Shown here: positions 50,814 through 64,000 of the stretch, in pieces | Layout: the number at the start of each line of letters is the position of its first letter | How positions within the stretch are numbered: the stretch's first letter is position 1 | Source: Streptomyces bikiniensis | GTDB lineage: Bacteria > Actinomycetota > Actinomycetes > Streptomycetales > Streptomycetaceae | Reading direction: 5' to 3' | Length of the DNA: 64,000 nucleotides | NCBI GenBank assembly: GCA_000716465.1 | Contig: JNWL01000016.1 | Coordinates: 46,273-110,272 of the forward strand | Made by a program: the position numbers and the translations under genes | The notes under the pieces: generated by a model | What the model was told of the DNA's origin: nothing | Databases searched by the model: none | The model's input: only the letters and a program-made list of their open reading frames with translations

Positions 50814-50855
50814 TGCCCCCGGCAGGATTCGAACCTGCGACACCCGCTTTAGGAG
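50814..50855 (-). mobile_element. tRNA-Arg(CCU) 3' fragment: attachment site of the island
   Basis: On the minus strand the sequence reads C-T-CCT-A-A (anticodon loop with CCU), then AGCGG (3' anticodon stem), the T-arm GCAGG-TTCGAAT-CCTGC and the acceptor strand CGGGGGC plus discriminator A. The 5' half of a tRNA is missing; the bases upstream (TCCCA) cannot pair with AGCGG, so the identity stops inside the anticodon loop. Tyrosine and serine integrases commonly use exactly this part of a tRNA gene as attB. This is therefore one att end, and the complete tRNA is expected at the other end of the element. Confidence 0.85.
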
Positions 50856-51207: not shown

Positions 51208-51933
51208 TTACCCGGGGATGTCGAGGTCCTTCAGGTACGTGAGGCGGGCGTTTATCGCTGCGGAGAAGTGGCGCCAGTCGAGGCTCTCGACCAGTTCGAT
51301 CGGCTTCGGGTTCTCAGCCGAGGATGTGACGTAGCACGCGGCATCGTAGAGCTGTTCGCCCATGAGCCTCTCGCAGAAGATCCCGAACCGGTCCTGATAC
51401 GACGTGTTGTGCCAGATCTCATCCGCAGGAAGGGCGCCCTTGGCCGTCTTGACCGGCCTCCGGGATCCTTCGCCATCCTGCATGATGAAGAAGTAGCCCA
51501 GCCAGGGCTTCTCCTTCGGGTACAGCTCGGCAAGGGCTGCTCGGCGCAGGTCTACGGCGCTACCCAGCGCCTCCTCGACCCTGTTGTTGTAGTTGTTGCC
51601 GTACGACGGCCCGCCCAGTGCCTTCAGCTCGAACGCCGCCACGAGGACGTTCTTGTGGACGACCACGAGATCCCACTGCTTCTGCGGCCGGTAGTAGCCG
51701 GGCAGTTCAAGACCCTGTGACTTGGTGACGCGGATACTCTCTGGCGGGTACCCAGCGTCGAGGAAGAACTTTGAGAGCAGCACCGCGATGGCGTCGAAGT
51801 GCTTGCCGCCTCGTACAGCACCTGCCGTGCCCGCTCCCACAGCGGCCTTGATCGCCGACTGCTCTCTCTGAAGTTCCTTGGCACCCCAGTACGCCGCGAT
51901 GGCGTCTTCGAAGTCTTGGCGGGTGACCGTCAA
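51208..51933 (-). CDS. PaeR7I/XhoI-type type II restriction endonuclease
   Basis: A 241-residue protein of the PaeR7I family, which cuts CTCGAG. The family-typical features are the start RQDFEDAIAAYWGAKELQREQ, the segment ESIRVTKSQGLELPGYYRPQKQWDLVVV and the PD-(D/E)XK-like D...FELK (FELKALGG, about 123-130). KPWLGYFFIMQDGEGSRRPVK follows. Its TTG start has AGGAGG eight bases upstream, and it begins 12 bases after the methyltransferase stop, so the two are one operon (M before R). The role is defence against unmethylated incoming DNA and possible stabilisation of the island. Confidence 0.88.
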   Translation of the reverse strand: MTVTRQDFEDAIAAYWGAKELQREQSAIKAAVGAGTAGAVRGGKHFDAIAVLLSKFFLDAGYPPESIRVTKSQGLELPGYYRPQKQWDLVVVHKNVLVAAFELKALGGPSYGNNYNNRVEEALGSAVDLRRAALAELYPKEKPWLGYFFIMQDGEGSRRPVKTAKGALPADEIWHNTSYQDRFGIFCERLMGEQLYDAACYVTSSAENPKPIELVESLDWRHFSAAINARLTYLKDLDIPG

Positions 51934-51945
51934 GATTCGTTCCTC

Positions 51946-53622
51946 CTAGTCAGGCAGCTCGGCGAGCCCGTAGACACGCAAAGCGGCCTCGGTGGCGGCC
52001 TCCACATCCCTCTTGTCGAAGGCTTCGGCGAGAGCGGCCTGGTCGCCTTCGCTGATCGTCGCTGGGTCTGGGACGCGGATCTTTCGGAGGTACTGGGCTT
52101 GGAAGCGGAGGGTTCCCCCGCGCATCTTGACCGCGTACGCCTCCACGAACGCTTCCGCGACCTTGGACAGCAGCAGGCCACCGAGTACGCGCATGTCCCA
52201 GACGTCCGAGACGATGAAGTACAGGTTGTGGTGAGGGTACAGGCCGCCTTGATCAAGGACAGGGTGGATCCGCAGCTTCATGTCCGGAAACAGCAGCTTC
52301 TGGCGACGGGTGAGCTGGTGGTCGACCTTGTCGATAGTCTTGTACCAGCGCTGAGGCTGCTTGACCGCGACGTATCGCTTGCGCAGGGCCTCGCCGTGCT
52401 TCTCGAAGTAGGAGGCGAGGCGCGGATACGCGTCGAGGTCGACCAGGTCGCCGCTGGCCGTCCAGGGATTGACCAGGTACATGCCGCCCCAGTCGATCGT
52501 GCCGCTGGTGGTGTCGCGGACCATGGCCATGGGGAGCAATCGTTCCTCTTCGACCAGGTCCTTGTCCTTAGTGAGAAAGATCTTGTCTGCACCGGTCGCG
52601 ATGCCGATCCCAACCTTCGTTCCCGTCTCGGTGTCCTCAAGGAGCCGGAACCGCTCGGTGAGGTCCTCAATGACGGCGAGCCTGGCCGGCGAAGCGGCCG
52701 GCCACGAATCCTCTTCTGGGAACCAATGCGGCATGCGAGCAGCTTGGTGGGAAGCCGCGCCGACCGTCGACGGCTCGCCCTTTAGGTACCAGTCGGCGAA
52801 GATCCGCGCCGCTTCCGCCCCGAAGGACCGGTTCGTGTCCGCGGCCACCGCCGCACCCTGGGGCTTGTTCGAGATGAGCGTGATCGCGGGATAGGCCGAA
52901 ACCTGCTCGTCGAAGGCGTCGACATCGTGCATCACGAGAGCGAGGTCCATGCTGAAGTGCTTGGTCACCAGCTCCCTGAGTCGTCGACCGTACTGGTTCC
53001 GCATCCAACGGTCGGCGCAGATGAAGCCCAGCTGGCCGCCTGGGTTGAGGCTGCGCAAGGCCACCTCGTAGAAGCCGATGTAGATGTCGGCTCGGCCACC
53101 CATCGTGGAGCAGGCCCGCCGGTAGGCGGCCATCCGGTCGTCGGGAACGTCTTCGAGCCGGATATACGGAGGGTTACCCACGACGTAGTCGGCGCGATGC
53201 TCGGCGTCCGACTGTAGAAGGTAGTCGCCTTGCTTCACCCACGCGGTGGCGACCTTCCTCGCGTCCTCCGCCGCCCAGCCCTCTTCTTGCAGCGCTGCCG
53301 TGACCAGCGCCCGGCTCTGCTCTACGTTGCGGCCCAGCAGGTCGAAGGCGCGAACGGCGTCGATCGCATCGATGATGGGGCGCTGGTGCGCATGGCATGA
53401 CGCACTGATTCGAGACGCGATCACGGTCAAGAACGCGCCGCCGCCACAGGCCGGCTCCACGAGCCTCAAATCGCAGAGGTCCCTATCTGCTGTATAGCCG
53501 AGAAGGTCCAGGATGAGCTCGACCACCCAGGCGCGCGTGAACACCTCACCGTGCTCCACGGCCTCCTGCAGAGACTCGGGAAGGGAGAGGTCGTCGGTGC
53601 TGAACAGCGCGAGATTTGCCAC
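51946..53622 (-). CDS. PaeR7I-type adenine-N6 DNA methyltransferase
   Basis: A 558-residue class gamma-type MTase with SAM motif LVEPACGGGAFLTVIASRI (about 60-78) and catalytic motif NPPYIRLEDVPDDR (about 150-163). A large C-terminal target-recognition region includes VGIGIATGADKIFL and DHQLTRRQKLLFPDMKL. It should methylate the site cut by the partner endonuclease, protecting host DNA. GTG 53622 is likely leaderless: TACTGT (53634-53629) lies 6 nt upstream, whereas the longer frame starting at TTG 53652 has no signal. Translation directly from the mRNA end could allow methylation before cutting. Confidence 0.88.
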   Translation of the reverse strand: MANLALFSTDDLSLPESLQEAVEHGEVFTRAWVVELILDLLGYTADRDLCDLRLVEPACGGGAFLTVIASRISASCHAHQRPIIDAIDAVRAFDLLGRNVEQSRALVTAALQEEGWAAEDARKVATAWVKQGDYLLQSDAEHRADYVVGNPPYIRLEDVPDDRMAAYRRACSTMGGRADIYIGFYEVALRSLNPGGQLGFICADRWMRNQYGRRLRELVTKHFSMDLALVMHDVDAFDEQVSAYPAITLISNKPQGAAVAADTNRSFGAEAARIFADWYLKGEPSTVGAASHQAARMPHWFPEEDSWPAASPARLAVIEDLTERFRLLEDTETGTKVGIGIATGADKIFLTKDKDLVEEERLLPMAMVRDTTSGTIDWGGMYLVNPWTASGDLVDLDAYPRLASYFEKHGEALRKRYVAVKQPQRWYKTIDKVDHQLTRRQKLLFPDMKLRIHPVLDQGGLYPHHNLYFIVSDVWDMRVLGGLLLSKVAEAFVEAYAVKMRGGTLRFQAQYLRKIRVPDPATISEGDQAALAEAFDKRDVEAATEAALRVYGLAELPD

Positions 53623-53682
53623 GCAAGGACAGTACCGCCCGGCCCTCCCCAAGTCCGACTTCTATCCATAGGGTGTAGTCAG

Positions 53683-54246: not shown

Positions 54247-55587
54247 TCAGACCGCATCGGCCAGAGCCCGGAGGCGGTCGCGGAATTCGCCCACGGCTGG
54301 CACCGCAGAGTGGGGTTCGAGGTAGTTGCTGAACTTCCTCAGCCGGACGTGTGCGCGGTCGGACTGGACGCGGTTCTCCAGCAGCTCCAGGCCGAGGTTG
54401 GCGGCGTCCAGGGCGCCGTCCAAGTCCCGGGCGGCGAGCCGTGCCGTGGCGAGGCGGCCGGATCGGACAGCTCGGTCTCGCGGTACTGCTTGGTCCACTG
54501 CCACCGCGAGGGCGCTGGTCGCTCGCTCGGGGAAGCCGGAGCGGAGCATGATCTTGCCCTCGGTCGACTTGAGCTGGGCCTCGCCGTACCAGCCGAGCCA
54601 GTCAGGACGGTCGCCTTCGCGGTGGGTTCCCCAAAGGTCGTAGGCGCGATTGAGGGATTTCCCGGCTGCCTCGTGCTGTGTATCCCTGGAAAGCGCTTCG
54701 GCTTGGTGGAGGTAGAGGTACGAGGCCGCCGCCGGCGGGAGGGCCGAGGGGGCGTTGCCGATGGCGGTGTCGATCAGCTTCACGCGTGCCGCCGTGTCGC
54801 CGGCGTCGGAGATGTGGACGCCCATCTCGGCCAGGATGAAGGCGCCGAAGCCGTCGTCCTTGGCGCTGTGGGCGCTACGGAGAGCGCCGACGTAGTAGCG
54901 CTGCCCAAGGGAGCGGAGGCCCTTGTCGTAGGCCATCCATCCGGCGAGGTAGGAGACACGGGCGGCTGTCGCGTACAGGCGGTGTTCGACGGCATCGGAG
55001 TAGCGCCCGTGGTCGAGGAGGCTGGTGATCAGTGCAAGGTCGCTGGTGGCCTGGTCTAGGAGGCGCGCGCCGCCCATCTGGTCGTCGAGGGTGCGGAGGG
55101 TGTCCACGCGCGCTTCGATGGTGGTCACCATCGCGTCGGTGACGCGGTCGCCGTCGATTGCCGAGGCGAACGCCTCTGGCGCGGCTGCCCAGTCGGCGGC
55201 AACCCCCGTCAGCGCGACGCCGGTGATGGACAGGAAGCCCCGACGATCCATGTGACCGCTCCTGACCAGGTCAGCGAATACCTTCACGGTGCCGGCCGGA
55301 GTCCACGGGGCCGCCAGGGCCGTCGACTCCCAGGCTGGCAGCCACCGCGGCCAGGGCACCGAGCGTACGTGGTCTTCGGGGACGCCCAGCAGGTCGGCGA
55401 GCACCCGTTGCGCGTCCGCGTCAGGCGCCTGCCCCTGCTCCCATTTCCAGACCGTCGTCCGGTTGGTGGCCAGCGGTACGCCCAGCTCGCCCCCGCGTTC
55501 ACGCATGCGCCGGGCTAACTCGGCCTTGCCCCAGCCCTTGCCTTCTCGCACGTAGGTCAGCGGGTGCAGGGCCATCGGGTCAGACAT
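54247..55587 (-). CDS. XRE regulator with TPR-like C-terminal domain
   Basis: A 446-residue protein. The HTH (REGKGWGKAELARRMRERGGELG..NRTTVWKWEQGQAP, about 14-55) is followed by a helical domain resembling TPR repeats (for example AFILAEMGVHISDAGD and YLYLHQAEALSRDTQ). This architecture is common in streptomycete signalling or peptide-sensing regulators placed beside biosynthetic or ATP-grasp genes. Its start is the ATG at 55587. It is divergent from the cargo operon and probably controls it through the GAAAC/GTTTC and GGAAACGTTCC elements between them. Confidence 0.85.
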   Translation of the reverse strand: MSDPMALHPLTYVREGKGWGKAELARRMRERGGELGVPLATNRTTVWKWEQGQAPDADAQRVLADLLGVPEDHVRSVPWPRWLPAWESTALAAPWTPAGTVKVFADLVRSGHMDRRGFLSITGVALTGVAADWAAAPEAFASAIDGDRVTDAMVTTIEARVDTLRTLDDQMGGARLLDQATSDLALITSLLDHGRYSDAVEHRLYATAARVSYLAGWMAYDKGLRSLGQRYYVGALRSAHSAKDDGFGAFILAEMGVHISDAGDTAARVKLIDTAIGNAPSALPPAAASYLYLHQAEALSRDTQHEAAGKSLNRAYDLWGTHREGDRPDWLGWYGEAQLKSTEGKIMLRSGFPERATSALAVAVDQAVPRDRAVRSGRLATARLAARDLDGALDAANLGLELLENRVQSDRAHVRLRKFSNYLEPHSAVPAVGEFRDRLRALADAV

Positions 55588-55846: not shown

Positions 55847-56011
55847 ATGAGCCAGCCTCTGCCCGTCCGCACGCCCGGTGACAGCGGACGACAGCACACG
55901 GTTCCCGAGCCGCCGGCCGGTCCGAGTCCGGCCCTCCGCGCCCGCGCCGAGTCCGGGTGGGAGAGATTCCTCCGTCGCGGAGCGAGTGACCGCGAGGAGT
56001 CCGAGCGGTGA
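55847..56011 (+). CDS. 54-residue Arg/Pro-rich small ORF
   Basis: The ATG with GAGGAG six nt upstream gives a 54-residue peptide: a Pro-rich first half (MSQPLPVRTPGDSG, PEPPAGPSP) and a helical, charged end (ALRARAESGWERFLRRGASD). Its stop overlaps the start of the next small ORF as GTGA. It is the first gene of the cargo operon. It could be a short regulatory peptide or the precursor of a processed product; nothing here is conclusive. Confidence 0.6.
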   Translation: MSQPLPVRTPGDSGRQHTVPEPPAGPSPALRARAESGWERFLRRGASDREESER

Positions 56012-56211
56012 ATCCGGTCGACGCCGAAGGCCGGGAGGACCACCCCCTCCTTCACCGCCTGGTCCGCGACATTGCGAGCCGGGGTGAAGGCGAGCTGACA
56101 GAAGTCGTCCACGAGAGGCACGGCGGCCGGGTCATCCGTATCGCCCACATCCAGTCCGCGAACGGCATCGGCTGGTCGACGGCCGCCGACAACGTCGGGC
56201 CCGCCCGATGA
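56008..56211 (+). CDS. 67-residue small protein
   Basis: A GTG overlapping the previous stop opens a 67-residue frame: acidic/His start (MNPVDAEGREDHPLLHRLV), then a beta-rich part (GRVIRIAHIQSANGIGWSTAADNVGPAR). GAGGAG is 8-9 nt upstream. Its stop overlaps the next ATG (ATGA), so three tiny genes are translationally coupled. The function is unknown; with the adjacent ATP-grasp gene, a precursor-peptide or small-partner role is possible. Confidence 0.6.
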   Translation: MNPVDAEGREDHPLLHRLVRDIASRGEGELTEVVHERHGGRVIRIAHIQSANGIGWSTAADNVGPAR

Positions 56212-56297
56212 GACAGCGCCTCGCTGTCGTGGCCTACGTGATCGTCGTCAGTGCGCTCGTCGTCACGTTGGCCATGGCCGGAACCCCGGACCACTGA
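56208..56297 (+). CDS. 29-residue TM peptide
   Basis: The ATG overlaps the previous stop (ATGA) and encodes MRQRLAVVAYVIVVSALVVT followed by LAMAGTPDH. A single hydrophobic helix fills nearly the whole peptide, with a basic N-terminus predicting N-in topology. Coupling and position between two coupled genes support translation. It may be a tiny membrane anchor or toxin-like peptide. Confidence 0.55.
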   Translation: MRQRLAVVAYVIVVSALVVTLAMAGTPDH

Positions 56298-56314
56298 GAG
56301 ACGGGAGAAGCACC

Positions 56315-57436
56315 TTGAGACGTCCCCCGAACCGTGGCTTCAACCACCGCCAGGCCGTGACCGAGGAGTGGTTCCGCACCCAGGTTCTTCCTCGCGTGTC
56401 CAGCGCGCGGTTTCTCCCCTACCAGGTGCGACAGATGCGGAATGAGCACCTTCCCGCGATGTTGCGAGACGAGGACCGGAAGAGCATCGCCCGTATCGCG
56501 GGGGACCTGGTGAAGGTCTCCGCGCGGTGGCGCTGCCTGCCGTTCCACTACTTCCGCTACGGCGGATACCGGCGCGAGGTGTCCTCCGAGCGGGCCTGCT
56601 CGTACCTGCCGGAGAGCGCTCTGTTCCACCGGCTCCTTCCCCGCGTGAACCGGGACGCGATCGACCTGGACGACAAGTCGTCCTGCAAGAGGATCCTCGC
56701 GTCCGCAGGCATCCCGCAGCCCGCGCTCATCGCAAGCGGTGACCGTCGCACGGGTATGACGTCCGCTGGTGATGTGGTGCCGCTGACGGAGGTCTTCGAC
56801 CACGCTTCCGGACTCGGCCGCGTGGTGGTCAAGCCCTCCCGCTACTCCAGCGGTGGGTCCGGCGTCGTGATCGTGCGGCCTGGCGAGGACGCCTTCGACC
56901 TCCCGGCCTACGCGCAGCGGTGGGGCACGTGGCTGGTGGAGCAGCACGTACCTCAGCATCCCGACCTGGACGTGCTGAACCCGTACGCCCTCAACACGTT
57001 TCGCGTGATCACCCTGCTGCGCGATGGTGCCGCCAAGGTCCTGTACGTGATGTTGAAGCTTGGTGGCGCCGAGAGCACCACGGACAACTCGTCCGCCGGC
57101 GGCATGCAGATCCGTGTTCATCCCGATGGAAGGCTCGACCGTCACGGGTACGACCGGTACCTGAACGCCCACACCCGCCACGGGGTCAGTTCGGTGCCGT
57201 TCGCCGACCACCAGATCTCCCGCACGACGGAGGTCCGCGAGCTGGCCGAGCGCTGTGCGCGCCTGTTCCCGCAGGTGCCCTTCATCGGCTGGGACATCGC
57301 ACTGACACCCGGCGGACCTGTGGTCATCGAGGGCAACAGCAGCCCCTCCCTCGCACATATCCAGCGCACCCACGGCGGCGTCGCGCGGGAGCTCGTTCCC
57401 GCGCTCCGCTCTGTGATGGATCGCCCGATCATCTGA
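56315..57436 (+). CDS. ATP-grasp ligase (sugar-transfer-associated type)
   Basis: A 373-residue ATP-grasp enzyme that should join a carboxylate to an amine or thiol with ATP. The nucleotide-binding segments are RVVVKPSRYSSGGSGVVIV (about 170-188), WGTWLVEQHVPQHP and the C-terminal PFIGWDIALTPGGPVVIEGNSSPSL with the metal-binding Glu and Asn. This resembles the ATPgrasp_ST group. The TTG start has GGGAGA upstream. It lies 17 bases after the TM peptide and 13 bases before the nucleotidyltransferase, as part of one operon. The substrates are unknown. Confidence 0.85.
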   Translation: MRRPPNRGFNHRQAVTEEWFRTQVLPRVSSARFLPYQVRQMRNEHLPAMLRDEDRKSIARIAGDLVKVSARWRCLPFHYFRYGGYRREVSSERACSYLPESALFHRLLPRVNRDAIDLDDKSSCKRILASAGIPQPALIASGDRRTGMTSAGDVVPLTEVFDHASGLGRVVVKPSRYSSGGSGVVIVRPGEDAFDLPAYAQRWGTWLVEQHVPQHPDLDVLNPYALNTFRVITLLRDGAAKVLYVMLKLGGAESTTDNSSAGGMQIRVHPDGRLDRHGYDRYLNAHTRHGVSSVPFADHQISRTTEVRELAERCARLFPQVPFIGWDIALTPGGPVVIEGNSSPSLAHIQRTHGGVARELVPALRSVMDRPII

Positions 57437-57449
57437 CCAAGGAGTTCCC

Positions 57450-58379
57450 GTGGAAAACCTGAGAATGCAGGCCCGCGCTGCGGCCGGAGGTCTGCTCGAC
57501 ACGCTCAAGACGATGCCTGAGGTCCAGGCGCTCTACGTCCTGTCCTCCTCGGCGGTCGCGCCCCGCAACGTCACCCGGTTCAGCACCGACTCCGACTTCG
57601 ACCTGGCCGTCATCCTCGACGTCCCGATCAAGGAGGACGAGTGGAGGTCGCGGCCGGCGGACACGTACGCCCTGGTCCGCGACCGGCTCCCCGCCTGGAT
57701 CCCGGAGTTCAGCTTCCACCTGCCGGTGCCCTGGGGACGCATGGAGGTCAACGTCCACCAGCTCCTGTTCCAGTACGAGGCCGACCCGCGTACGGCGTGG
57801 AACAGCGACAAGTGCGACGCCTACGGCAACAAGGGCGAGCCGCTGTTCGATCGCGAGGAAGCCTTCGGAGCGCTGATCTCCCACAAGACGCGCGAGCAGC
57901 TCCAGCGCCTGGAGGGCGAGACCTACCGGCTGCACAACCGGATCACCTGGGACGTGCGCGAGATCCCGCTGCGCATGGCGCGGCGGGTCGGAGTGCCCAC
58001 GGGCCACTTCGTCCTCTCCGGGGCGCTGGACGAGGTCGTGGACTGGATGTACGCCCGTTCGGGCCAGCTCCTGCCGAACATGAAGTGGAAGCTGTACTCC
58101 CTCGGCGCACTCGGCCTGATCAGCAGCGAGCAGGAGAACCTGCTGATCGAGGCCCAGCAGTGCGACCCGCTGTCGATGGTCGACCTGGAACGGCGGTGCG
58201 AGGCCCTGAGCGAGTTCTGCCGCGTGGTCGGGATGGACCTCAGCCCCGGGGCGATCGAGGTCGTGCGGAAGGCGTACCAGCAGGCCAACCACCACCTTCT
58301 CGGGGAGGAGGCGGCGATCTTCGCCACCCTTCCGTCCCCGCGATTCGTCCCCTTCGGCGAGCGCGGCGGTTCCAGTTAG
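57450..58379 (+). CDS. Nucleotidyltransferase-fold protein
   Basis: A 309-residue protein. The N-terminal pol-beta nucleotidyltransferase core is LYVLSSSAVAPRNVTRFSTDSDFDLAVILD (metal-binding DxD in SDFD, about residues 50-57), with WGRMEVNVHQLLFQYE as the third acidic strand. A helical C-terminal domain follows. Such enzymes add an AMP or other nucleotide to a small molecule, tRNA or protein, including aminoglycoside/lincosamide nucleotidylation. Which applies here is unknown. It lies between the ATP-grasp and CysRS genes in the same operon. Confidence 0.8.
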   Translation: MENLRMQARAAAGGLLDTLKTMPEVQALYVLSSSAVAPRNVTRFSTDSDFDLAVILDVPIKEDEWRSRPADTYALVRDRLPAWIPEFSFHLPVPWGRMEVNVHQLLFQYEADPRTAWNSDKCDAYGNKGEPLFDREEAFGALISHKTREQLQRLEGETYRLHNRITWDVREIPLRMARRVGVPTGHFVLSGALDEVVDWMYARSGQLLPNMKWKLYSLGALGLISSEQENLLIEAQQCDPLSMVDLERRCEALSEFCRVVGMDLSPGAIEVVRKAYQQANHHLLGEEAAIFATLPSPRFVPFGERGGSS

Positions 58380-58433
58380 ACGCTTATGTCCGGGCGTCAG
58401 TACGCTGCGTGATCCGCTTACACAGGAGGCATG

Positions 58434-59810
58434 ATGTCGATCAAGGTCCACAACACGCTGACCGGCCAGGTCGAGGAGTTCCGCCCCGAGCGGGAGGCCG
58501 AGGTGCGGATGTTCGTGTGCGGACCCACCGTGTACGGCCCCAGCCACGTCGGGCACGCGAAGACGTACACGCAGTTCGACTTCATCGCCCGGTACCTGGA
58601 GGCGAGCGGGTACAAGGTCACGTACCTCCAGAACATCACCGACGTCGACGACAAGATCATCCGGCGGTCGGCGGAGCAGGGCGTCCCGCCAGAGGAAATC
58701 GCGGCCTTCTTCGAGAAGCAGTACCTGGAGGACATGGCTGCGTTGGGGAACACCCGTGTCGACGTCCACGCGCGGGCCCACGACCACATCGACGCGATCG
58801 TGGACCAGATCAAGCGGCTGATCGAGCGCGGCCACGCCTACCAGCTCGACGACGGCTGGTACTTCGACCTGGCCTCGTTCCCCGCGTACGGCAAGCTCTC
58901 CGGCCGCACCGACCTGCGTCCCGAGGACTCGGTGTCGCGGATCGACGACAGCTCGAAGAAGCGAAACCCGGGCGACTTCGCCCTGTGGAAGGGGCGCAAG
59001 GACGGGGAGCCGTTCTGGGAGACCGAGCTGGGCCAGGGCCGGCCGGGGTGGCACATCGAGGACACCGCGATCACGGAGACCTTCTTCGGGCCCTCCTACG
59101 ACCTGCACGGCGGCGCGGTCGACCTGATCTTCCCGCACCACGAGGCCGAGGTCGCGCAGATGGAAGCCGCCTCCGGTATCGAGCCGCTGGCCCGCTACTG
59201 GATGCACACCGGTCTGCTGCGGGTCGACGGCGAGAAGATGTCGAAGAGCACCGGCAACTTCCTCACCATCCGCGACGCCCTCGCCCGGACGGACTTCCGC
59301 ACCCTGCGGCACGCCTTCCTCTCACAGCACTACCGCTCCTCCATGGAGCTGAACGACTCCACCCTGGAGCAGGCCCGAGGGGCACGCCGCCGGATCGAGA
59401 ACTTCGCCCGGGCCATCGACACCGCGCACACCGACAGCCAGGCGAACGCCGCACGCGCGGCGGACGCCTGGAAGGAGATGCGCGAGCGCCTGGACGACGA
59501 CTTCGACAGCCCCGGCGCCCTCGCCGTCCTGTTCCAGTACATCCGCGAGCAGAACCGCACGGAGGAGCCGGCCGGCCGGGCCGCCCTGCGGCTGATCGAG
59601 GACGTGAACAACCTCTTCGGAACCTTCGACATCCCCGGCTCCGCCCAGAGCGACGCCGCCGTCGACGAACTCGTGAAGGAACGCGACCGGCTCCGCGCGG
59701 CGAAGAAGTTCGCCGAGGCCGACGCGATCCGTGACCAGCTCACCCAGCAGGGCGTCGTCCTTGAGGACTCGCCCGAGGGCACCCGTTGGTGGAAGGAGAC
59801 CACCTCATGA
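58434..59810 (+). CDS. Cysteinyl-tRNA synthetase, second-copy type with altered zinc site
   Basis: A 458-residue class I synthetase complete over its length: HVGH at 38-41 (HIGH motif), KMSKS at 268-272 and a full anticodon-binding end. The zinc site that reads Cys with specificity in E. coli (C28, C209, H234, E238) corresponds here to C29, D210, H235 and E239: the second cysteine is aspartate in PGWHIEDTAI. I recall IEDTAI from archaeal-type CysRS, so this gene may be of foreign origin. AGGAGG precedes the ATG. A housekeeping CysRS is expected elsewhere; a role as a resistant copy or as a supplier of activated amino acid for biosynthesis is inferred. Confidence 0.88.
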   Translation: MSIKVHNTLTGQVEEFRPEREAEVRMFVCGPTVYGPSHVGHAKTYTQFDFIARYLEASGYKVTYLQNITDVDDKIIRRSAEQGVPPEEIAAFFEKQYLEDMAALGNTRVDVHARAHDHIDAIVDQIKRLIERGHAYQLDDGWYFDLASFPAYGKLSGRTDLRPEDSVSRIDDSSKKRNPGDFALWKGRKDGEPFWETELGQGRPGWHIEDTAITETFFGPSYDLHGGAVDLIFPHHEAEVAQMEAASGIEPLARYWMHTGLLRVDGEKMSKSTGNFLTIRDALARTDFRTLRHAFLSQHYRSSMELNDSTLEQARGARRRIENFARAIDTAHTDSQANAARAADAWKEMRERLDDDFDSPGALAVLFQYIREQNRTEEPAGRAALRLIEDVNNLFGTFDIPGSAQSDAAVDELVKERDRLRAAKKFAEADAIRDQLTQQGVVLEDSPEGTRWWKETTS

Positions 59811-60376
59811 CCTGGAAGAGTCGCTTACCGCTCGTCGTAGAGAGCGCCATCCCCCTCAGCCTCTGCGGAGCGCTGATGGACCACGTCAAGAACCACACCG
59901 CCCACCCGCGCACCTACCAGGGCGTCATCGACGAATCGCTGCGCAAGAGCGAGTACGTCGAGATCCCGACGCACCTGCAGGAGGCGGTCATCGCCCACTG
60001 CGCCGCCCACGTCCGCAGCCACTTCGAGATCGCCCCGAAGCGCATACCCACCCAGCCGGCGGTCGTCTACCGCTACGGCCCCGGCGTCGGCTTCGTCGCC
60101 CACCACGACGAGGTCACCGACATCGAGCGCGAACGGGCCCGGACCAACGGCCAGCCCGTCGTCGGCGGCGACCTCACCCTCGTGGTCTGGCTCAACACGC
60201 CGGACTCCTACGGCGGCGGGGAGCTGTTCTTCGAGAACCCCGCCCAGGAGATCAAGCCGCCCTGCGGCACCCTGGTCGCCTTCCCCACCACCCGCGACCA
60301 CATCCACGGCGTACGGCCGATCACGCGGGGCGAACGCGTCACACTCGTCGTACGCGTCGACGCCGAATGCCTCTGA
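59807..60376 (+). CDS. 2-oxoglutarate/Fe(II) dioxygenase (prolyl-4-hydroxylase fold)
   Basis: A 189-residue enzyme. The metal-binding motif is HHD (H99/D101) with the distal His in DHIHGVRP (about 165-167) and an Arg shortly after (RGERV, R177) for 2-oxoglutarate. GYGPGVGFVAHHDEV and GGGELFFENPAQEI are typical of P4H-type dioxygenases. Its ATG overlaps the CysRS stop (ATGA), showing coupling. The seventh codon (59825-59827) is TTA, rare in Streptomyces and read only by the bldA tRNA, so production would be under developmental control. The substrate is unknown. Confidence 0.87.
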   Translation: MTWKSRLPLVVESAIPLSLCGALMDHVKNHTAHPRTYQGVIDESLRKSEYVEIPTHLQEAVIAHCAAHVRSHFEIAPKRIPTQPAVVYRYGPGVGFVAHHDEVTDIERERARTNGQPVVGGDLTLVVWLNTPDSYGGGELFFENPAQEIKPPCGTLVAFPTTRDHIHGVRPITRGERVTLVVRVDAECL

Positions 60377-60430
60377 ACTAATGCCAGTTCCCCTGCCAGC
60401 CAGGGCAGCACGGCTGCCAGGATGAACGGC

Positions 60431-61603
60431 ATGACGACGATCAACGGTGAGGTAGCGCCCGGATTCGAACCGGTCCGCGAGGCGTTCGCAGCGAACTTCA
60501 CCCAGCACGGAGACATCGGCGCGGCCGTGTGCGTCTACTGGCACGGCCGGCCGGTGGTCGACCTGTGGGGCGGCGTCGCCGACGTCGACACCGGTCGGCC
60601 GTGGACGCGGGACACCTTGCAGCTGGTCTACTCGGCAACCAAGGGAGCCACGGCGACCGCGGCGCACATGCTGGTCGAGCGCGGCATGCTCGACCTCGAC
60701 GCCCCGGTGGCGGTGTACTGGCCCGAGTTCGCGGCGAACGGCAAGGCGGACATTCCCGTGCGCTGGCTCCTGTCCCACCAGGCCGGCCTGGTCGCCCTCG
60801 ATCAACCGCTGCCACTGGCCGAGGCGCTGGCCTGGGATCCCATGGCGGCAGCGCTGGCAGCCCAGCGCCCGGTGTGGACTCCGGGCACTGCACACGGGTA
60901 CCACGGTCGCACCTGGGGTTGGCTGGTCGGCGAGGTGATCCGCCGCGTCTCCGGCCGCTCACCCGGCACCTTCTTCGCCGACGAGATCGCGGGCCCGCTC
61001 GGGCTGGACTTCTTCATCGGCCTGCCGGCCAGCGAACGCGAGCGGGTCAGCCGCATGGCGTACCGGCGACCGGCCGTAGACCTTACGGCGGTGCCGGTCG
61101 AGTCCATCCCCGAGGAACTCCGCGAACAGGTCGACGCCTGGCGCGACCCGAACTCCTTCAGTAACCGGGCTTACGCGGTCACCGATCCGGCCGCGATCGA
61201 CTTCGACTCCCCCGAGGTACAGGCCGCCGAACTCCCGTCCTCCAACGGCATCGGCACCGCACAGGCACTCGCCCGCATGTACGCCGCGCTGATCGGCGAG
61301 GTCGACGGCGTGCGCCTGCTCGCCCCGGAGACCCTGGCGTCGGCGACCGCAGAGCAGGCCAGCGGAAAGGACCAGGTGCTGGTGTTCCCGAGCCGCTTCA
61401 GCACCGGCTACATGCTCCCCACCGAGGACAACCCCATGACCGGCCCGACCGCGTTCGGGCACACCGGTCGTGGCGGCTCACTCGCCTTCGCCGACCCCGA
61501 GCACGGCATCGCCTTCGGCTACGCGATGAACCACATCATCAGCGGGTCCGACGATGTACGTGCGGCCGCGCTGGCCGAGGCCGTGCGAAAAGTGGTGGTG
61601 TAG
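60431..61603 (+). CDS. Beta-lactamase-fold serine hydrolase (EstB/family VIII type)
   Basis: A 390-residue protein with the class C-like motifs SATKG (S68-K71), a Tyr-containing TPGTAHGYHGRTWGWL segment in place of YxN, and HTGRGGS in place of KTG. These changes are typical of family VIII esterases and D-aminopeptidases rather than true beta-lactamases. No signal peptide is present, so it acts in the cytoplasm. The ATG at 60431 was preferred to 60422 because AGG lies 9 nt upstream. It follows the oxygenase by 54 bases on the same strand and may belong to the same operon. Confidence 0.82.
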   Translation: MTTINGEVAPGFEPVREAFAANFTQHGDIGAAVCVYWHGRPVVDLWGGVADVDTGRPWTRDTLQLVYSATKGATATAAHMLVERGMLDLDAPVAVYWPEFAANGKADIPVRWLLSHQAGLVALDQPLPLAEALAWDPMAAALAAQRPVWTPGTAHGYHGRTWGWLVGEVIRRVSGRSPGTFFADEIAGPLGLDFFIGLPASERERVSRMAYRRPAVDLTAVPVESIPEELREQVDAWRDPNSFSNRAYAVTDPAAIDFDSPEVQAAELPSSNGIGTAQALARMYAALIGEVDGVRLLAPETLASATAEQASGKDQVLVFPSRFSTGYMLPTEDNPMTGPTAFGHTGRGGSLAFADPEHGIAFGYAMNHIISGSDDVRAAALAEAVRKVVV

Positions 61604-62332: not shown

Positions 62333-64000
62333 TCACAGCCGAGAACGGTTGATCGGATTCGGGGCTATAGGGATCGCTGCGGGCTGTGTCGCGTACGCCC
62401 CGAGGCCACTCGCATATGCCCGTGTGGTGCGGCTGCGGGCGGCTTCGGCGCGGGGGTTGGGGGCTGGGTTGCGGCTGGTGTGCTGGATGCTGGTGATCAG
62501 GACGCGGGCGGGTTGGCGGGCGGTGGTGAGTTCGCGTTGGGCTGCGGCCTCCTTGAGGAGCTGGTGGGGTTTGTGGCCGCCGGCTTCGGCGTCGGCGAGG
62601 ACGGTGGCAAGGGCCGGCCAGGCGGGGTCGGTGAGGATGCGGTCGGCGTGGTCGGGGACGGCAGCCCGGACGTCGTGGGCCAGGGTCCGGCGGGCCTGAT
62701 CGTTCGGCCGGCGGGTGGCGAGGCTGCCGACGATCGGGGTGAGGGCTCGGTCGGCGGCGGTCTGGAGGTGGTGGAGGGTCTGGCGGGCTGCTTCGGTCTG
62801 GTGGGCGTGGTTCTTCGCCTCGTGCCAGCGGGCGGCGACGATCGTGGCCCAGACGAGGTCGGCCAGGAGGGTCGCCAGGGCGCTGCCGTCGGGGCCGGTG
62901 GCGGTGTGGGCGAGGTCCCGGGCCGCTCGGCGCAGGGTGTGGGCGGCCTGGTTCTCAGCGCGGATCTGGGAGCGCTGAGCGCGGGCGAAGGCCCGTGAGG
63001 CTGCTCGTAGTTCGGCGTGGAGGTGGTTGGGGGCCTTCTGGGCGGTGGCTTCGATGAGGTCGCCGAGCGCGGTGATGTGGGCCTGGGCGTGGGTGTCGTC
63101 GGTCATCCCCTGGTGGAGGGTTTCGAGGGCGTCGGTGGCCTGGTGCCAGGGGGTGGTGGGCTGGTCGCGGCGGGCGGTGGGGTGTTCCTCCGGCGCGGTG
63201 GTCTCCAGGCGGGCTTTGAGTTTGGGGAGGGTGAGGTCGGGGGCGATCTTTCCGCCGGGGTGGAAGATCTGTTCGCCGTTCTTGTTGAGGTCGCCGGGGC
63301 GGCCGACGGCGTATCCGAGGAGGTCTCCGGACGGTCCGCGGCGGGGTTTGACCGCGATGTCCATGGCTTCGAGGTAGGTGAGGAGTTCCTCCGTGTGGCT
63401 GGCGTGGGGGATGGCGGCGCGGATGCGGTCCTGGAGCCAGTCGCGGCTGGTCTGCTCCCAGCCGAGGCGTTGTGCTTTGTGCATCTCGGCCTGGGTGGGC
63501 CGGCGTGCGGCGGTGCGGTCGCCCTTCTTCAGTTGGCGCAGGCCGTAGTCGGTTTCTATCTGGCGGCAGGCGTCGCCGACGCGGATGCCGCTGTCGTGGA
63601 GCTTTGGGCGGCGGCCGTCTTCGCGGACGGTGGTGGCGAGGATGTGGATGTGGTCGTCTGCGTGGCGTACGGCGATCCACCGGCAGGCCAGGTCGTCTCC
63701 GGGCGGGGCGATGCTGGCGGCTTCGACGATGCGCTGGGCGATGTCGGCCCACTCGGTGTCGGAGAGGTGCCGGTCTTCGGGGGCGGTGCGGACGGGGCAG
63801 TGCCAGACGTGGTCGGTGACCTTCTTGCCGAACTCGTTGTTCCGAAGATGGACGGGCTCGTCGAGGTGGCGGGCGAGTTGGGTGAGGGTGGCGTCGGGGT
63901 CGCGGCCGGGGTCGGGCATGCCGAGCATGGCGAAGCCGGCGACGATGTGCGGGTCGGTGTGCTCGTCGTGGCGGCCGGGGCCGTAGAGGTAGGCGAGCAG
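62333..64000 (-). CDS. MOB-type relaxase/mobilization nuclease (5' end outside window)
   Basis: The frame is open to the right edge (555 residues visible) and starts beyond it. The visible N-terminal part LLAYLYGPGRHDEHTDPHIVAGF and WIAVRHADDHIHILATTVRED, with the HxDDHIH metal-binding triad, are diagnostic of actinobacterial relaxases that nick oriT and lead DNA transfer. A long helical C-terminal part with PQRREHP/TARRDQP-like segments follows. It marks the element as mobilizable. The catalytic tyrosine should lie in or beyond the missing N-terminus. Confidence 0.88.
   Translation of the reverse strand: MLAYLYGPGRHDEHTDPHIVAGFAMLGMPDPGRDPDATLTQLARHLDEPVHLRNNEFGKKVTDHVWHCPVRTAPEDRHLSDTEWADIAQRIVEAASIAPPGDDLACRWIAVRHADDHIHILATTVREDGRRPKLHDSGIRVGDACRQIETDYGLRQLKKGDRTAARRPTQAEMHKAQRLGWEQTSRDWLQDRIRAAIPHASHTEELLTYLEAMDIAVKPRRGPSGDLLGYAVGRPGDLNKNGEQIFHPGGKIAPDLTLPKLKARLETTAPEEHPTARRDQPTTPWHQATDALETLHQGMTDDTHAQAHITALGDLIEATAQKAPNHLHAELRAASRAFARAQRSQIRAENQAAHTLRRAARDLAHTATGPDGSALATLLADLVWATIVAARWHEAKNHAHQTEAARQTLHHLQTAADRALTPIVGSLATRRPNDQARRTLAHDVRAAVPDHADRILTDPAWPALATVLADAEAGGHKPHQLLKEAAAQRELTTARQPARVLITSIQHTSRNPAPNPRAEAARSRTTRAYASGLGAYATQPAAIPIAPNPINRSRL

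Follow-up and report, generated by a model that had tools for sequence, protein, structure and literature searches.

The stretch of Streptomyces bikiniensis DNA considered here raises the question of what a second, divergent cysteinyl-tRNA synthetase (CysRS) is doing amid a run of genes of biosynthetic type. The window, i.e. the whole 64,000-nucleotide stretch that was analyzed, comes from a 7.39-Mb genome assembled in 163 contigs and ends where its contig ends. In the first-pass annotation, eight packed genes were read as a candidate pathway for which no described cluster with the same combination was known, and none was found in the literature searched (titles and abstract starts). Here we present the gene content, inheritance and setting of the locus, together with the features of its CysRS, and weigh the functions that these suggest.

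Layout, inheritance and setting of the cassette

The core unit consists of four consecutive genes on the forward strand at positions 56315-60376, which encode an ATP-grasp enzyme, a nucleotidyltransferase (NT), a CysRS (termed D-type below) and a 2OG-Fe(II) oxygenase. The ATP-grasp and NT genes are separated by 13 nt and the NT and CysRS genes by 51 nt, and the stop codon of the CysRS gene overlaps the start codon of the oxygenase gene (ATGA). The NT has a two-domain NTase fold, and the HxD...H motif and Arg of the oxygenase are invariant in eight aligned sequences and also in 17 rows (L012 excluded). Compared with loci L004-L009, the four core genes show dN/dS values of 0.12-0.35. A sigma-70 promoter scan yielded 0 matches with a model that is not informative for Streptomyces, and Rfam gave no match at the gathering threshold in the 50-64 kb part of the window.

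Table 1. Features of the cassette and its surroundings (positions within the window)
Feature	Position	Strand	Profile match or remark
tRNA-Arg(CCT) 3' end, attachment-site-like, inferred left island edge	50815..50855	-	41 bp identity
NsdA-family XRE-TPR regulator, divergent	54247..55587	-	NF053720, 350.5 bits (cut-off 75)
Small ORF 1, 54 aa from ATG, accessory	55847..56011	+	
Small ORF 2, 67 aa, accessory	56008..56211	+	
Third small ORF, 29 aa, hydrophobic	56208..56297	+	ATGA overlap with small ORF 2
ATP-grasp carboxylate-amine ligase, core gene 1	56315..57436	+	PF14397
Nucleotidyltransferase (NT), kanamycin-NTase/ANT(4'')/LinB fold, core gene 2	57450..58379	+	
Divergent CysRS (D-type), core gene 3	58431..59810	+	TIGR00435, 445.8 bits (cut-off 340)
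2OG-Fe(II) oxygenase, prolyl-hydroxylase/PiuC type, core gene 4	59807..60376	+	PF13640, 9.4e-12
Serine hydrolase, beta-lactamase/esterase fold, accessory	60422..61603	+	PF00144, 2.5e-74

A scan baited with the NT, using one genome per species, returned 17 loci from Streptomyces, Kitasatospora and Kibdelosporangium. All 17 hold the ATP-grasp, NT, CysRS and oxygenase genes in identical order, one copy being decayed; the flanking genes vary between groups of loci. Within the genus of the window, the NT occurs in nine of 392 genomes, its own included (10 places), and the D-type CysRS in the same nine (E below 1e-130; 10 places), where the species of one genus are not independent and no probability is attached to the co-occurrence. 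The co-conservation that a neighborhood search had been proposed to check was thus found, for a smaller unit than annotated: the set is pathway-like, and it comprises four genes rather than eight, the small ORFs and the hydrolase being confined mainly to close relatives. Streptomyces sp. ISL-43 carries a second, decayed copy of the cassette (L012:8879-12560) beside a copy with all four genes (L013); in the decayed copy the NT is frame-broken, the oxygenase is cut short and the CysRS frame is interrupted by a stop.

When contigs were paired by length among the matches listed (37 lengths for NT, 120 for CysRS, 91 for ATP-grasp), 13 lengths appear in all three lists, four combine NT and CysRS only, five CysRS and ATP-grasp only, and eight NT and ATP-grasp only. 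The 49 lengths of more than 20 kb with CysRS only among the matches listed were not taken as evidence of stand-alone genes; they include those of the contigs of the window, L009 and L013, all of which carry the cassette. The CysRS had no match in viral contigs, and the NT was found neither in phages nor in plasmids. Plasmid matches to the ATP-grasp enzyme (25-35% identity) were rejected as cassette members by identity, as was the CysRS of Clostridioides difficile, in which 12 plasmid records (H8-H19) of 97-150 kb carry a cysS about 40% identical to that of the window. ARAGORN found no cassette-borne tRNA-Cys in the 17 loci or the window.

The tRNA-Arg(CCT) 3' end to the left of the cassette matches the cassette-adjacent tRNA-Arg(CCT) genes of L005 and L006 without a difference and that of L011 at 98% identity; ARAGORN labels the same stretch tRNA-Phe(aaa). 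In L014, exact direct repeats of 48 bp, which represent a tRNA-Arg 3' end and one of which overlaps a tRNA-Arg gene, bracket about 6.3 kb (L014:6780-13159). This islet comprises the four core genes together with a regulator of the NsdA family and possibly a 45-aa ORF; no integrase was noticed in its ORF list. The other 17 stretches examined showed no bracketing repeat of at least 18 bp, and a clean outline is seen in only one of 18.

The NsdA-family regulator is present in eight of the 18 stretches, window included, and other HTH regulators lie near the cassette in several others; it is cassette-associated but exchangeable. Small ORF 1 shows dN/dS values of 0.05-0.24 against L004-L008, with no credible counterpart in L009, L014, L018 or L019. 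Small ORF 2 is 89-93% identical in L004-L007 and 71% in L008, with a 75% match in L009, and the third small ORF is 76-93% identical in L004-L008 and 66% in L009. The hydrolase, whose best NCBIfam match is LipL (241 bits, below the cut-off of 650), is confined to the window and L004-L008 among the 18 stretches. Like the hydrolase, the three small ORFs are found mostly in the nearest relatives and are therefore not shared precursors, and a RiPP reading was dropped. A PEARL-type pathway was also dropped, no such enzyme being found among 10 proteins scanned.

Just left of the regulator, at 51208-53652, PADLOC recognizes a restriction enzyme (REase_II, 4.1e-49) paired with a methyltransferase (MTase_II, 2.7e-195), both of type II; among the 17 other loci this pair is present in L005 only. 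A relaxase gene (PF03432) occupies 62333-63928 on the reverse strand, right of the cassette, with relatives in L004, L007, L010, L013, L016 (part) and L019.

A cysteinyl-tRNA synthetase with a changed zinc-ligand position

In an alignment to 1li5, Asp211 of the window CysRS takes the place of E. coli Cys209, a ligand of the catalytic zinc, the full set being Cys28, Cys209, His234 and Glu238 (E. coli numbering). The other three positions are kept (C30, H236 and E240). HxGH, KMSKS and the anticodon-binding domain are present; R422, D431 and D446 match E. coli Arg427, Asp436 and Asp451, the anticodon-binding residues, and the position of Trp432 is occupied by Phe. C30, H236, E240 and the three anticodon equivalents are invariant in all 20 aligned D-type rows. 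Asp stands at the Cys209 position in each of 120 listed homologs (the best 120 of 8000 scored, the window's own included; 59-100% identical) and in the CysRS of all 17 NT-baited loci, whereas the housekeeping CysRS of the window's genome and of eight distant actinobacteria have Cys. Genera named among the D-type homologs include Saccharothrix and Promicromonospora, for which the NT search gave no match. Scans of 396 genomes of the phylum and 394 of the class found the D-type CysRS in the window's own genome only, eight other matches in the phylum (E 1e-110) carrying Cys; in the order of genome G428 it was found in one of 397 genomes, namely G1289.

In a tree of 48 chosen sequences (quick method, SH-aLRT only), all 23 D-type rows group as a single clade (support 100) at the end of a long stem, apart from housekeeping CysRS and MshC; the program warned of long branches meeting, namely those of MshC-like rows with ordinary CysRS rows. 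In a separate alignment the rows of L002 and L003 were wrong-frame ORFs and were dropped. Fourteen positions, several of them around the zinc site, are fixed differently in the 23 D-type and 17 ordinary rows. Against the MshC profile the window CysRS scores 287.9 bits, below the cut-off of 485.1, and its C-terminal domain is present, so that it is not an MshC. The host genome keeps its own housekeeping cysS beside the D-type copy, and the extra copy is therefore not needed for growth alone.

Whether this type of enzyme charges tRNA-Cys can be approached through another actinobacterial genome, G1289 (99% complete), which holds a D-type CysRS gene (L049:8866-10242) with no cassette genes in the 16 kb read around it, i.e. 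half of the contig. Neither the NT model, for which the scan of the 392 genus genomes provides a positive control, nor the ATP-grasp model, which had no such control in this search, matched G1289. Its only other CysRS relative at E 1e-20 is a genuine MshC (640 bits; cut-off 485). Two CysRS-family genes occur in all 16 genomes of its genus: the better one is ordinary, with Cys, in 15 of them and D-type in G1289, and the second has an MshC-type motif in all 15 that were read. Genome G1484 shows where cysS natively lies; at this place G1289 has the series ispF, HAD gene, rlmB, and the gap of about 240 bp that separates the HAD gene from rlmB contains no cysS (L084:7484-7726). The D-type CysRS thus apparently stands in for the ordinary enzyme and charges tRNA-Cys in G1289, an argument from a natural, not experimental, replacement in one genome that is 1% incomplete.

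What is implied is that the changed zinc ligand lowers the label 'standard CysRS' and not the label 'works as a CysRS', since activity is suggested by the natural replacement in G1289. As the gene occurs there without cassette genes, the type may be a general isozyme; as its clade apparently replaces housekeeping cysS in this other actinobacterium, the cassette-borne enzyme would be a functional isozyme, which points to immunity. The amino-acid-activating step to which the first-pass annotation had assigned this gene is probably not its main role, although a dual role is perhaps conceivable.

Six-gene cassettes were found in Kibdelosporangium banguiense (L018) and Streptomyces sp. PH10-H1 (L020), comprising a CysRS relative, an ATP-grasp enzyme, a second ATP-grasp enzyme (43% identical between the two), the NT, the D-type CysRS and the oxygenase. 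The extra CysRS relative measures 391-397 aa, lacks the anticodon domain and has the normal zinc Cys. It is nearest to MshC, with 375-389 bits below a cut-off of 485, and the tree joins the two on long, possibly misleading branches; this suggests that the enzyme forms an amide on cysteine. In L020, a gene for a JmjC-type cupin protein (PF08007; L020:12989-14200), perhaps an additional tailoring enzyme, lies downstream at a distance of about 4 kb from the six-gene cassette.

Possible product, self-immunity and alternative functions

We favor, at a probability of roughly 45%, the reading that the four genes form a mobile biosynthetic operon whose product would be a CysRS inhibitor derived from cysteine and possibly nucleotidylated, and that the altered CysRS provides self-immunity. 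The ATP-grasp enzyme would couple an amine with an amino acid or a comparable acid, the KNTase-like enzyme would place a nucleotide, probably AMP, onto a small molecule and perhaps make it adenylate-like, and the 2OG oxygenase would hydroxylate an intermediate. The product would most likely be a cysteine-derived or cysteinyl-adenylate-like inhibitor of CysRS. The D-type enzyme, as a tRNA-Cys-charging isozyme, would protect the host if its altered zinc/cysteine pocket tolerates the product, and it might also feed the pathway in the manner of AbmK of albomycin. We infer the chemistry, product, target and resistance, and with them every step that follows a functional CysRS isozyme. The biosynthetic interpretation given at first is retained for a co-conserved, pathway-like set, cut to four genes and with its CysRS reread as an immunity isozyme.

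One feature of operons for aminoacyl-tRNA synthetase (aaRS) inhibitors is present: linked to the biosynthetic-type genes is an aaRS that is divergent and comes in addition to the housekeeping enzyme. Against the inhibitor reading, an antibiotic pathway would be expected to be larger than this cassette, and no transporter is among its four genes. That CysRS is the target is surmised from the isozyme, because no natural CysRS inhibitor was found in the literature searched: PMC7916415 names CysRS at two places, which only classify it, and PMC4695845 once, for structures. The supply of Cys-tRNA or of cysteinyl-adenylate could equally be the reason for an extra CysRS copy. It is somewhat doubtful whether this mobile mini-operon, which is rare but occurs in several genera of actinobacteria, makes the first natural CysRS inhibitor, a nucleotidylated and hydroxylated cysteine derivative mimicking cysteinyl-adenylate, with an immunity enzyme from a separate CysRS clade that charges cysteine by way of a C-D-H-E metal site in place of C-C-H-E. 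If true, the four-gene cassette, itself easily moved to a laboratory host, would offer an antibiotic target of a new class along with the matching immunity gene. The D-type clade is also of interest for the discrimination of cysteine from serine, a classic example of amino-acid selection by metal (PMC7373986).

The D-type CysRS might instead serve as a biosynthetic supplier, either by activating cysteine or an amino acid akin to it or by providing charged tRNA-Cys to the pathway, and confer no immunity. We consider this unlikely, even though the CysRS gene lies within the operon in all 17 NT-baited loci and the altered pocket is fixed throughout the D-type clade, both of which speak for a supplier. 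VlmL reportedly has a supplying role in valanimycin. Precedents among seryl-tRNA synthetases (SerRS) are described in passages of PMC9032320, where AbmK provides seryl-adenylate in albomycin and the SerRS gene vlmL belongs to the valanimycin cluster. Profile scans, however, found no tRNA-dependent transferase among the four genes, the anticodon-binding domain is kept, D-type is apparently the only CysRS of G1289, and L018 and L020 already hold a separate MshC-like enzyme. It appears quite improbable that the enzyme is an isozyme of the metal- or redox-sparing kind, suited to zinc shortage or to oxidative or metal stress and carried on the island by chance, with the remaining three genes making a metabolite unconnected with it. 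The changed zinc-ligand position and the copy without a cassette in G1289 would suit such an isozyme, and passages of PMC2770081 list CysRS paralogs of beta- and gamma-proteobacteria among the genes predicted to belong to Zur regulons; these Zur-linked paralogs, however, keep the zinc residues according to the same passages. Linkage to the other genes in all nine genomes of the genus does not fit a rider, and a Zur-like palindrome, which is not a validated actinobacterial box, had 0 matches in the window. No COG0523-type match was found among 10 window proteins scanned.

That the cassette is an intracellular system for defence or competition, directed for instance at an invader's tRNA-Cys, and not a pathway to a secreted compound, is in our judgment very improbable. 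The island setting with restriction-modification and relaxase genes and a tRNA-Arg site would be in keeping with it, as would the KNTase fold with a HEPN-like helical domain. PADLOC, however, gave no match for the ATP-grasp enzyme, NT or CysRS and only a generic CRISPR-associated 2OG label for the oxygenase (E 3e-14), restriction-modification genes accompany just one of the 17 other cassettes (that of L005), and an ATP-grasp ligase and a 2OG oxygenase would be unusual in such a system. A reading of the NT as a HEPN RNase was rejected: its invariant R179/H186 pair sits between early helices of the C-terminal domain, off what is presumably the place of the HEPN motif.

Comparison with known systems

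Agrocin 84/TM84 combines a mobile setting with a nucleotide-type product. It resembles the favored reading, an inhibitor with self-immunity, in that an aaRS inhibitor is found beside an extra resistant class I aaRS, the LeuRS AgnB2 (a passage of PMC7916415); the cassette differs in its aaRS and gene set, and its NT has the antibiotic-NTase fold. MshC is a CysRS relative used for amide formation, to which the second CysRS-family protein of L018 and L020 is nearest, whereas the window CysRS is full-length with an anticodon domain. The NT shares its fold and DxD arrangement with the kanamycin nucleotidyltransferase ANT(4'')/LinB type, but is 8-10% identical in structural alignments, has no sequence-family match and lies within the operon in all 17 loci. 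The oxygenase belongs to the PiuC/prolyl-4-hydroxylase sequence family and has its Fe/2OG ligands (E 4.4e-7 to PiuC 9ghl), but is a short stand-alone enzyme with a conserved GQPVxGGD segment of its own.

Extra resistant aaRSs are reported from the producers of albomycin, TM84/agrocin 84, mupirocin, borrelidin and indolmycin (a passage of PMC7916415). In albomycin, the amide is formed by AbmF, which is related to aaRSs, and a second SerRS, AbmK, both delivers seryl-adenylate and confers resistance (passages of PMC9032320). The cassette is similar in having an extra divergent aaRS within a biosynthetic operon, to which L018 and L020 add a truncated, ligase-type aaRS relative, and it differs in that cysteine would take the place of serine and that no PLP or radical-SAM gene is found among the four. 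The paired CysRS relatives of L018 and L020 would fit a logic resembling that of AbmF and AbmK, and the four-gene cassette of the window would then be a reduced version of the six-gene form.
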